A stretch of DNA of 37,916 nt from Ruminococcus sp. Lineage in GTDB: Bacteria; Bacillota; Clostridia; Oscillospirales; Acutalibacteraceae. The stretch is from positions 1-37,916 of the forward strand of contig JAFRDE010000007.1 of NCBI GenBank assembly GCA_017403985.1, read 5' to 3'. Of this stretch, positions 5,087-9,955 are shown one piece after another (the stretch's first letter is position 1; each line of letters opens with the position of its first letter). The position numbers and the translations under genes are program-made. The notes beneath the pieces are model-generated. The model ran no database searches and had not been told where the DNA came from. It saw only the letters and a list, made by a program, of their open reading frames with translations.

Positions 5087-5108
5087 AATGTTATAGAAGG
5101 TGAAGAAC

Positions 5109-5981
5109 ATGAAATCTCTCATAAAGCAAATTAGAGATTATCTGAATATGAGCCAAACTGAGATTGCAGAATTGTTGAATGTCACCTTTGCAACGGTCAA
5201 TCGCTGGGAGAACGGCCGGGCTGTTCCCAACAAACTGGCTCAAACTACTCTCTATGAGATTTGTAAGGATAACTCTGTGCCCGTCTACGATATCACCCTC
5301 AACAGAATAGCCAAAGCTGCAAACAATATTGTTCTGCCAAACAATCGTATCATTCTTTATCACGGTTCGAAATCGGGTATCGAGGGAAAGATCGAACCGA
5401 AAAGTCGCTCTCAATGTGATTTTGGCAAGGGCTTTTACATGGGTACCGATCCGAGTCAAGCGCTGACGCTGATTTGCGATTATGACAAGTCAAAGTTCTA
5501 TATTATGTCTGTTGATCTGTCTGATCTCGATATGATCGAAGTTCCTGCCGATATCGAGTGGGCTATGCTTGTTGCATATCATCGTGGCAGGATGGAAAAA
5601 ATAAAGGGTACTACTCTTTATGAGAAGTACCGCAAAATGGCTGATGATAAAGATTTGGTAATCGGAAGTATCGCCAATGATCGAATGTTCTATGTGATCG
5701 ATAACTTCTTCATCGGCAATGTGACAGACGCCGCTTTGGTAGGCAGCCTATCGGCTTTGCAACTCGGCAAACAATATGTTGCCGTAACACAGAAGGGTTG
5801 CGATGCTGTCCGGATCGAAGCTGAAGTCGAAATATCCCATTTGGAACGCCTGTTCATGAAAGAGGTTGCCGAAGCAAATCGAGCAAAGGGTGTTTCCCTC
5901 GCTAATGATATCTGCAAGAGCTATCGCCGCGAGGGCTTGTTCTTTGACGAGATCCTTGAAAAAGCGCAGAACGGAGGCTAA
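5109..5981 (+). CDS. XRE HTH fused to DUF3990 ADP-ribosyltransferase-like domain
   Basis: 290 aa. Residues about 5-55 form a Cro/C1-type HTH (MSQTEIAELLNVTFATVNRWE). From about 80 the protein matches DUF3990, with YHGS (H85) and DFGKGFY (Y110) resembling the H-Y positions of ADP-ribosyltransferase folds. DUF3990 is often found beside small partner proteins and behaves like the toxin half of a two-gene system, although its biochemistry is not settled. The start at 5109 is chosen because AAGGTG lies five bases upstream; a GTG three codons earlier overlaps that site. The stop abuts the next start. GC content is visibly higher than in the flanking island genes, so it may have arrived separately. 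Confidence 0.75.
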   Translation: MKSLIKQIRDYLNMSQTEIAELLNVTFATVNRWENGRAVPNKLAQTTLYEICKDNSVPVYDITLNRIAKAANNIVLPNNRIILYHGSKSGIEGKIEPKSRSQCDFGKGFYMGTDPSQALTLICDYDKSKFYIMSVDLSDLDMIEVPADIEWAMLVAYHRGRMEKIKGTTLYEKYRKMADDKDLVIGSIANDRMFYVIDNFFIGNVTDAALVGSLSALQLGKQYVAVTQKGCDAVRIEAEVEISHLERLFMKEVAEANRAKGVSLANDICKSYRREGLFFDEILEKAQNGG

Positions 5982-5983
5982 TG

Positions 5984-6400
5984 ATGGACGAACTGCAATT
6001 GAAGCTGTGCGACATACAGGGCAGACTGTTTGAGTTGTCCGGTGAAAAGGAAATCTCCAGCGCCGCGTTTATCAAAACCTTTATGACCTCTGAAACCGCA
6101 AAGGAGTTGGATTCTCGCTACAACCGTATGCAGTGGATGGGTGAGGAATATTTGCTGGAAGAGATCATGTCTGCTGCCGGTGATACCCTGTCCGGTACTG
6201 GTGAGATCTACCAAAGGGAAATAATGTACTGGATCGGTTACATCTACCGCTATTGGCATTACTACACCGGCGAGAGCAGCGCAAAAATCATACGACAGGC
6301 TCCTGCCGCAACAATGAAGCGCAATTATATGATGTTTCACACAATGGATCCCGTGCTTGCTATAGAAGATTTGAAAGAGATCCATGATCAAAAGAAATAA
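5984..6400 (+). CDS. Small partner protein of DUF3990 gene
   Basis: 138 aa, no membrane segment. It contains a central RYNRMQWMGEEYLLEE stretch and a late MYWIGYIYRYWHYYTGESS segment rich in aromatic residues. I recognise the type as a recurrent neighbour of DUF3990 proteins in Firmicutes but know no established function. GGAGG at 5973-5977 sits seven bases before this ATG; another ATG three bases earlier is possible. The gene starts two bases after the stop of the HTH-DUF3990 gene, so the two are translationally linked. An antitoxin or cofactor role is inferred from this layout alone. Confidence 0.65.
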   Translation: MDELQLKLCDIQGRLFELSGEKEISSAAFIKTFMTSETAKELDSRYNRMQWMGEEYLLEEIMSAAGDTLSGTGEIYQREIMYWIGYIYRYWHYYTGESSAKIIRQAPAATMKRNYMMFHTMDPVLAIEDLKEIHDQKK

Positions 6401-9252: not shown

Positions 9253-9297
9253 CTCCAAAACCACGTGCCGAGGGTTCAAGTCCTTCTGCCCCTGCCA
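9253..9297 (+). tRNA. tRNA-Trp 3' half (attachment-site remnant)
   Basis: Starts with the CTCCAAA anticodon loop (anticodon CCA), then the variable region, a T arm (GAGGG-TTCAAGT-CCTTC), an acceptor 3' strand TGCCCCT, discriminator G and CCA. The sequence upstream does not pair with the anticodon stem, and no D arm or AGGGGCA 5' acceptor strand is present, so this is not a working tRNA. A break in the anticodon loop is typical of integration by tyrosine recombinases. It marks the right junction of the AT-rich island. The intact tRNA-Trp is expected at the left end, outside this window. Confidence 0.8.
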
Positions 9298-9298
9298 T

Positions 9299-9336
9299 AA
9301 AATAAGGAACCATCCATAAGGGTGGTTCCTTATTTT
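9299..9336 (+). terminator. Hairpin after tRNA-Trp fragment (unit 1)
   Basis: A 14-bp perfect stem (9299-9312 with 9323-9336) extends by three more pairs to an ATAA loop and ends in TTATTTTAT. It fits a rho-independent terminator placed directly after the CCA end. A near-identical hairpin is repeated 205 bases later. Confidence 0.6.
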
Positions 9337-9503
9337 ATCATTAAAAGCAGAAGGACTTGAAGGCGACCGTGCCCGCCGCAGGCGGGTAAAAATGATCCGG
9401 TGAATCATTTTTAGGGAGAGCGATTATCTTGCTTTCCGTTTGCTGACCGGGACAAGGCGAGGAGAAGCCCATCTACTATATCTCTGTATTCTGCCCTTGC
9501 CAT

Positions 9504-9541
9504 AAAATAAGGAACCATCCATAAGGGTGGTTCCTTGTTTT
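9504..9541 (+). terminator. Hairpin of second 205-bp unit
   Basis: Copy of the hairpin at 9299-9336 with one changed base in the 3' arm (TTGTTTT for TTATTTT), which leaves a G-U pair in place of A-U in RNA, so the stem is kept. Confidence 0.5.
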
Positions 9542-9719
9542 ATCATTAAAAGCAGAAGGACTTGAAGGCGACCGTGCCCGCCGAAGGCGGGTAAAAATGA
9601 TCCGGTGAATCATTTTTAGGGAAAGCGATTATCTTGCTTTCCGGTTGCTGACCGGGACAAGGCGAGGTGAAGCTCATCTGCTTTATCTCTGTATTCTGCC
9701 CCTGCCACGCGGAACATCT

Positions 9720-9759
9720 CGAAAAGGCGATCACTAAGTCCTTTTCGGGTTGTTTTTTT
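9720..9759 (+). terminator. Rho-independent terminator, likely original tRNA terminator
   Basis: CGAAAAGG (9720-9727) pairs with CCTTTTCG (9740-9747) and is followed by a T-rich run with seven Ts (9753-9759). It lies just after the third copy of the tRNA 3' end, where the terminator of an uninterrupted tRNA-Trp gene would be expected. Confidence 0.65.
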
Positions 9760-9955
9760 GTTTCGGCTGTTCTGTTTAACTGTGCTATACCCCTTACATC
9801 TTGCAATCATCTTGCAATCTGGTTGTTGTTTTGTCTTTCATCAGGCATTATTCAATGCGACCGCAAAATCTAATTTTGATAATTCATCAGCATGAGCAAA
9901 ATCTTAATGCCGCAGCGGATGTATTATATATTGTAATACAACTTGAAATCGACAG
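9760..9955. other. Intergenic stretch without recognised feature
   Basis: Between the tRNA-linked terminator and the 3' end of the first chromosomal hydrolase gene. Short frames overlap here, but none has a ribosome site or domain. Confidence 0.5.

Follow-up and report, generated by a model that had tools for sequence, protein, structure and literature searches.

A probable mobile non-coding repeat behind tRNA genes of Ruminococcus carries an inverted arm that matches the local tRNA

The window analyzed here, a stretch of 37,916 nt from Ruminococcus sp. (assembly GCA_017403985.1, contig JAFRDE010000007.1), contains two tandem units behind the 3' end of a tRNA-Trp. These units probably belong to a mobile repeat which is non-coding and non-autonomous, measures roughly 180-250 bp and inserts behind the CCA of tRNA and tmRNA genes, and whose inverted arm is copied locally. 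At many loci, the 14-bp repeat was found together with units stacked in tandem and an inverted copy of the T-arm/acceptor strand of the local tRNA, and at one locus the unit is shown to be an insertion element which restores the tRNA end and carries its own terminator-like hairpin. The ends of tRNA genes are classic landing sites of bacterial mobile DNA, and the integrase of an element residing there usually restricts it to one site. Tandem repeats of tRNA ends have precedents, as do site-specific mini-elements; what is new is an inverted arm matched to the target on a core that switches between tRNAs: one core type is located behind many tRNAs, and the arm follows the tRNA.

Results

A tandem array behind a tRNA-Trp remnant

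A repeat search of the window returned two 205-nt copies of 96% identity (9284-9488 and 9489-9693), which are edged by three copies of the 14-nt repeat TTCTGCCC(C/T)TGCCA, the 3' end of tRNA-Trp (Table 1), just as the preliminary description had it. The 15-nt inverted copy of the T arm that was noted there is exact in both units, but the match between arm and local tRNA at other loci had gone unnoticed. Only a single open reading frame of at least 80 aa overlaps the units (86 aa, minus strand). Since the same anatomy recurs at many loci, the pattern in the window is not due to chance. The assignment to tRNA-Trp holds for the 3' end together with a remnant starting at the anticodon loop (about 9253-9297), but not for a complete tRNA, which was called in the window neither by ARAGORN nor by Rfam at gathering level. 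A second copy of this 3' part was not detected by a search of the 63-contig assembly of the source genome, and tRNA-Trp was absent among the loci inspected around 42 tRNA matches. Truncation at the anticodon loop was seen by eye in further unit-bearing tRNA remnants (e.g., L156, L157 and L181), as would be expected if an island entered there. An island entering at this position may have split the tRNA-Trp of the window, leaving the 3' end and the two units on its far side. The terminator proposed to lie past the last copy was located as a terminator-like hairpin (9720-9760) and is, in analogy to the tRNA-Ala site described below, probably the original terminator of tRNA-Trp.

The presumed island to the left of the remnant contains adjacent SIR2 and HerA genes (48-2755), whose best matches are the PADLOC SIR2 and HerA models and which are likely an anti-phage pair. 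In addition, the region 5100-6400 harbors a DUF3990 protein with an HTH and a partner matching PDC-M42B, possibly a two-gene defence or toxin-antitoxin-like pair.

Table 1. Features of the tRNA-Trp remnant and the unit array in the window.
Feature	Position	Strand	Basis
tRNA-Trp 3' remnant, anticodon loop to CCA	9253..9297	+	sequence; uncalled by ARAGORN/Rfam
Direct repeat 1, tRNA positions 63-76	9284..9297	+	repeat search
Unit 1 terminator-like hairpin T1	9298..9338	+	repeat search (I3); position common to relatives
Unit 1 inverted arm, reverse complement of tRNA 54-68	9347..9361	+	repeat search (I5)
Unit 1 core	9362..9422	+	alignment with relatives
Unit 1 core parts	P1 CGACC 9364-9368, hp1 9372-9386, hp2 9387-9413, P1 GGGAG 9414-9418	+	
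Unit 1 tail	9423..9488	+	comparison with relatives
Direct repeat 2, 13/14 identical	9489..9502	+	repeat search
Unit 2 terminator-like hairpin T1	9503..9543	+	repeat search (I4)
Unit 2 inverted arm	9552..9566	+	repeat search (I6)
Unit 2 core	9567..9627	+	alignment; covariance model
Unit 2 tail	9628..9693	+	comparison with relatives
Direct repeat 3, tRNA 63-76	9694..9707	+	repeat search
Terminator-like hairpin 3' of the array	9720..9760	+	sequence; analogy with the tRNA-Ala empty site

Anatomy of the unit

The units share a common order in which tRNA positions 63-76 are followed by the terminator-like hairpin T1, a short spacer often ending in CAAAG, the inverted copy of tRNA positions 73-54 ending in GAA, the core (GGCGACYGTGCC-hp1-GGTAAAAA-hp2-TTTTTARGGAGAGCG) and a tail, after which tRNA positions 63-76 are repeated. 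Among the 64 units with a downstream repeat, the direct repeat measures exactly 14 bp in 41 and 13-16 bp in 50, and it is located 100-120 bases from the core in 59. T1 is absent from some units within tRNA operons (L048, L062, L063), which hinted that T1 might be the host's own terminator; this was rejected, as the old terminator sits behind the insert at tRNA-Ala. Arrays differ in size, as judged by eye from two loci with similar flanks that contain one unit (L059) or two (L090).

Several variants were observed. A long form of the core, in which hp1 is extended by about 130 bases (L021, L024, L029, L160), is common to several genomes, and two units, one behind tRNA-Ser(gct) (L028) and the second copy in L162, appear by eye to be truncated at the left while their right end is intact. 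At a tmRNA locus (L105), two cores 2.5 kb apart were considered as an autonomous copy with an internal gene; however, the second core is truncated and lies beside an ORF of 492 aa that looks recombinase-like by eye (core and ORF within 3342-4959 of L105). This core stops inside hp2, and hp2 may be the landing site of another element. A second array at L057, for which an origin by fold-back was considered, reads as the unit of another tRNA in opposite orientation.

Distribution and host sites

Fifteen copies of the unit were identified in the source genome by a covariance model. A DNA search matched 29 of 60 genomes of the genus, mostly through a core stretch of about 35-70 bp, and a pattern scan of named genomes yielded 81 stretches, nearly all from metagenome-assembled genomes labelled Ruminococcus or uncultured Clostridiales/Clostridia, with one isolate record. 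After removal of redundancy, 97 of 120 cores were kept which, together with the two from the window, make up a set of 99 units. For 69 of the 97 cores, a same-strand tRNA or tmRNA was called by ARAGORN no more than 600 bp upstream; its end is located 20-80 bp ahead of the core in 54, and is more distant in the other 15, several of which are second units of an array. ARAGORN alone called no tRNA or tmRNA within 600 bp of the remaining 28 cores. With remnants included, a tRNA end was recognized upstream of 85 of the 99 units, but not of the other 14, and a downstream repeat of that end in 64. The hosts comprise 12 isotypes (Leu, Pro, Arg, Gln, Glu, Ala, Met, Gly, Ser, Thr, Asp, Val) and tmRNA; one unit (L087) was assigned to His, but its arm fits a Gln end. 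The search suggested by the preliminary description was thus positive, as numerous further tRNA genes are followed by the unit together with the tRNA end that matches them.

Under strict filters, the covariance model matched 9 of 300 genomes of the family, including the source genome, and 6 of 135 genera. A hairpin pattern was found in 14 of 295 genomes and 8 of 148 genera of the order, with a reversed control giving 0. Of 20 loci obtained with this pattern and inspected by eye, ten are tRNA ends with an inverted arm, and four, from two genomes, are located at the 3' end of rpsI, whose product terminates in RRAPQFSKR; there, the plan is kept and the arm matches partly. The remaining six have different surroundings, and the hairpin is therefore not diagnostic by itself. 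The window unit had no match in plasmids, the unit L146 none in phages, two patterns gave 0 matches in viral contigs, and an initial pattern, which was too narrow, gave 0 in genome contigs.

As separate observations, the hairpin AAAACAGTCCGGTGGACTGTTTT occurs away from tRNAs in different repeats (L199, L200, L207, L212, L213), with 30 occurrences in one genome (G257). A Gut-1 RNA (RF01706, 76.5 bits) is located behind a unit in L201 (1296-1372, minus strand), and units in L098 and L211 also seem, by eye, to be followed by a Gut-1-like sequence.

Empty and filled tRNA-Ala(cgc) sites

A query in which tRNA-Ala(cgc) is joined directly to its downstream flank was run on 161 genomes of the genus. 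It was unbroken in G012 and G711, for which the sequences were read out, and according to the search table also in G719, G629 and G668. In contrast, 239-247 bp separate two copies of GCTTATCTCCACCA at this tRNA in the source genome and in G017, G631 and G688; the filled sites contain an exact 14-bp duplication, and the old terminator follows directly after the second copy. The comparison therefore shows an insertion with a 14-bp duplication by which the tRNA is restored and the terminator-like hairpin is brought along. Between the source genome and the empty sites, homology comprises the tRNA, about 60 bp ahead of it and about 85 bp past it; genes further downstream differ between empty and filled sites, and strict orthology is therefore not proven. 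The empty and filled sites and the 14-bp duplication support the view, already put forward in the preliminary description, that the unit is small and non-autonomous, inserts at the ends of tRNAs, restores these ends and stacks in tandem.

The inverted arm matches the local tRNA

The arm was compared with tRNA ends in 84 of the 99 units (51 distinct ends), for which a clean 23-nt tRNA end was required. In this set, the arm agrees with tRNA positions 57 and 59 in 100% and 99% of the units as opposed to 50% and 33% for other tRNAs, no other end fits better in 70 of the 84, and the summed match is 1145 compared to at most 790 in 2000 shuffles. As the ends of this set were partly chosen by their match to the arm, the test was repeated with ends called by ARAGORN only, which retained 68 of the 69 units with an upstream tRNA or tmRNA (45 ends). 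The outcome was similar: positions 57 and 59 were matched in 100% and 99% versus 51% and 30%, no other end was better in 55 of 68 units, with the own end strictly best in 47, and the summed match of 919 compares to at most 652 in 2000 shuffles.

Read from the core side, the arm of the 66 distinct combinations in the ARAGORN set matches the tRNA at 94% (844/894) before the first double mismatch and at 30% (46/154) after it, and 29 combinations have no break. In the larger set, the corresponding counts are 1032/1094 and 53/165, with 37 of 79 lacking a break and five breaks being indel-like. Hence, the arm behaves like a tract of variable length copied from the core side onwards. The CCA (positions 74-76) is matched at chance level and is not part of the arm, and the types of arm-tRNA mismatch do not tell which strand pairs. 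Together, these data suggest that a small non-coding element can become adapted to the site where it lands.

Cores sort by genome more than by tRNA

Median core distances were 0.382 for units at different tRNA ends of the same genome (53 pairs), 0.503 for units at the same tRNA in different genomes (83 pairs) and 0.510 otherwise (2014 pairs). On a core tree of 95 rows, the genome label (38 rows) required 23 changes, compared to 30.0 in shuffles with a minimum of 25, and the tRNA label (56 rows) 40 changes, compared to 45.3 in shuffles with a minimum of 42. The cores thus sort by genome more than by tRNA, while the signal of the tRNA label indicates that some copies were inherited in place at their tRNA. 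Pairs of units behind different tRNAs of a single genome include a tRNA-Gly and a tRNA-Ser unit (L053/L079), the cores of which are 83% identical, and two tRNA-Ser units (L089/L104) with 84% identity of their cores; each unit has its own arm and repeat.

Hairpins of the core

The core alignment contains 51 of 58 listed units, tandem near-duplicates and three others being left out; the list covers units with the repeat at the usual distance and excludes L075. On this alignment, the covariation score was 0.413 compared to a shuffled mean of 0.150, a value reached by none of 500 shuffles, for a structure which was chosen after inspecting the same alignment and before divergent forms were seen. 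In hp2, six pairs change on both sides, in P1 two. The pairing of GGAGAGC or GGAAAGC with GCTTTCC read from the window earlier is not conserved; in relatives, GGGAG instead pairs with the upstream CGACC, forming P1 with a tandem G.A motif on the tRNA strand. By eye, the tandem G.A is replaced in divergent genomes by Watson-Crick stretches (GGCT/AGCC, GCTC/GAGC, GGGC/GCCC), which speaks for folding of the tRNA-sense strand. P1 contains three U.G. In contrast, hp2 has 33 different stems in 107 contexts, and 625 of 642 cells are Watson-Crick, with four G.T and nine A.C. These stems change as a whole, as DNA hairpins or template-switch mutations would give, and judged from the sequences the near-absence of wobble pairs would speak against an RNA reading. 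Rfam returned no family at gathering level in the window; near the units, 23 matches at E up to 10 were obtained, the best of which is far below the gathering scores, and at 18 loci nothing beyond tRNA, tmRNA and Gut-1 was found.

Candidate enzymes

A mobilizing gene was not found among the candidates searched. Comparing the 29 unit-bearing genomes, i.e., those positive in the DNA search, of which at least one (G028) matches by the T1 hairpin only, with the 31 others, RVT_1 was present in 10 and 11, Cas1 in 4 and 12, being rarer with units, and the Y1 transposase (PF01797) in 13 and 18. The source genome has three RVT_1 matches and none for Cas1 (PF01867) or Y1_Tnp. Accordingly, a casposon or Cas1, a reverse transcriptase and a Y1 transposase were rejected as movers for want of a positive association with unit-bearing genomes. 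The sites chosen, i.e., the 3' ends of tRNA, tmRNA and rpsI, are those used by tyrosine integrases.

Discussion

We propose that the element would insert directly behind the CCA of a tRNA (or tmRNA) gene through an enzyme supplied in trans, whereby the last 14 bp would be duplicated and the tRNA rebuilt. The arm would not be inherited with the core and is probably copied from the target at or after insertion by template switching. The simplest route would be a switch at the T arm of the tRNA: a DNA strand with the conserved TTC at its end would prime again on the tRNA gene, from which a tract of variable length would then be copied. Points that weigh against local copying are the conserved spacer between T1 and the arm and the absence of the CCA from the arm, for which simple fold-back offers no explanation. 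According to PMC8794818, reverse-complement copies adjacent to their source are created and maintained by template switching, there as a mutation process in RNA genes, whereas here it is proposed as the origin of the arm of an inserted element.

Other explanations have to be weighed against local copying. The units might be mini-islands moved by the tyrosine integrases of resident ICEs, with the arm as the inverted core site of attP; the targets at tRNA, tmRNA and rpsI 3' ends agree with this, as does the length of the repeat, which is within the 12-54 bp given for such ICEs in PMC4701971. However, one core type at many tRNA ends is not expected of a single integrase, and we regard this explanation as rather unlikely. 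Alternatively, the arm might be a guide through which the unit, as RNA or as a single strand, pairs with tRNA positions 54-73 and homes there, with tRNA-specific lineages spreading between genomes. The match of arm and target, the stacking at one tRNA and some clustering of cores by tRNA would be in line with such homing, but cores at the same tRNA in different genomes are about as distant (0.503) as those at different tRNAs (0.510), those within one genome are nearer (0.382), and similar cores with different arms occur in one genome, which makes a guide doubtful.

It appears quite improbable that the units are old, tRNA-linked structured RNA genes similar to rtT of E. coli, which are not mobile and are kept in step by gene conversion within the genome. 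Co-varying stems with the tandem G.A motif on the tRNA strand and the similar plan of the rtT repeats would fit, but empty sites exist, DNA matches occur in just 29 of 60 genomes of the genus, the hp2 stems have almost no wobble pairs, and no Rfam family was matched at gathering level. Structured RNA may also be made by read-through from the tRNA, the alternative offered in the preliminary description; the stems do co-vary, but hp2 has no excess of G.U pairs. Target-primed reverse transcription by a retroelement or a casposon-like insertion is similarly hard to sustain: a 14-bp duplication at the tRNA 3' end resembles that of casposons, and the two 5'-truncated copies with an intact right end (L028 and L162, by eye) would also fit, but neither RVT_1 (10/29 versus 11/31) nor Cas1 (4/29 versus 12/31, none in the source genome) is positively associated with the units.

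Among known systems, the rtT repeats at E. coli tyrT, tandem repeats behind a tRNA that each contain the tRNA 3' end, are closest in plan, and tandem units each ending in a tRNA 3' end are likewise found here. To our knowledge, a target-matched inverted arm is not a feature of rtT. The covariance model RF00391 gave no match in the source genome, while the E. coli control was positive, and near the window, where matches with E up to 10 were considered, rtT was not among them. The target duplication of casposons is 14-15 bp, and a duplication of about 14 bp at the tRNA 3' end is shared by the units; however, the source genome lacks Cas1, and no terminal inverted repeats of the unit were among the repeats found in the window region. 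REPINs are hairpins mobilized by RAYT, whereas the units are site-specific at gene 3' ends with a duplication, and Y1_Tnp was not found in the source genome. Casposons are described to integrate at tRNA 3' ends (PMC6614799), and REP elements as mobile repeats which are short and non-coding and increase in number within a genome (PMC3116915). Tyrosine-integrase ICEs are reported to insert at the 3' ends of tRNA genes, rplL, rpsI and others, the end of the gene being contained in direct repeats of 12-54 bp (PMC4701971). The units have in common with tyrosine-integrase islands, ICEs and IMEs that they are inserted, with a direct repeat, where a tRNA or conserved gene ends at its 3' side; in contrast to these, the units, of about 240 bp, have no room for an integrase gene and combine one core type at many different tRNAs with a local inverted arm. 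A search of openly accessible literature returned no recognized description of the units.

If the arm is indeed copied from the target, the units would represent a natural system that re-tailors an element to its site. It might be speculated, as a tentative and in our view rather doubtful extension of local copying, that the element retargets itself: a generic structured core would land behind any tRNA or rpsI and rewrite its 12-20-nt arm to the reverse complement of the new target, the arm then acting as a new guide or recombination site when the next round takes place at that gene. Finally, the repeats lie where assemblies can break: in the source genome, tRNA-Ala(ggc) and the start of a unit end one contig, and the unit occurs again at the start of another.
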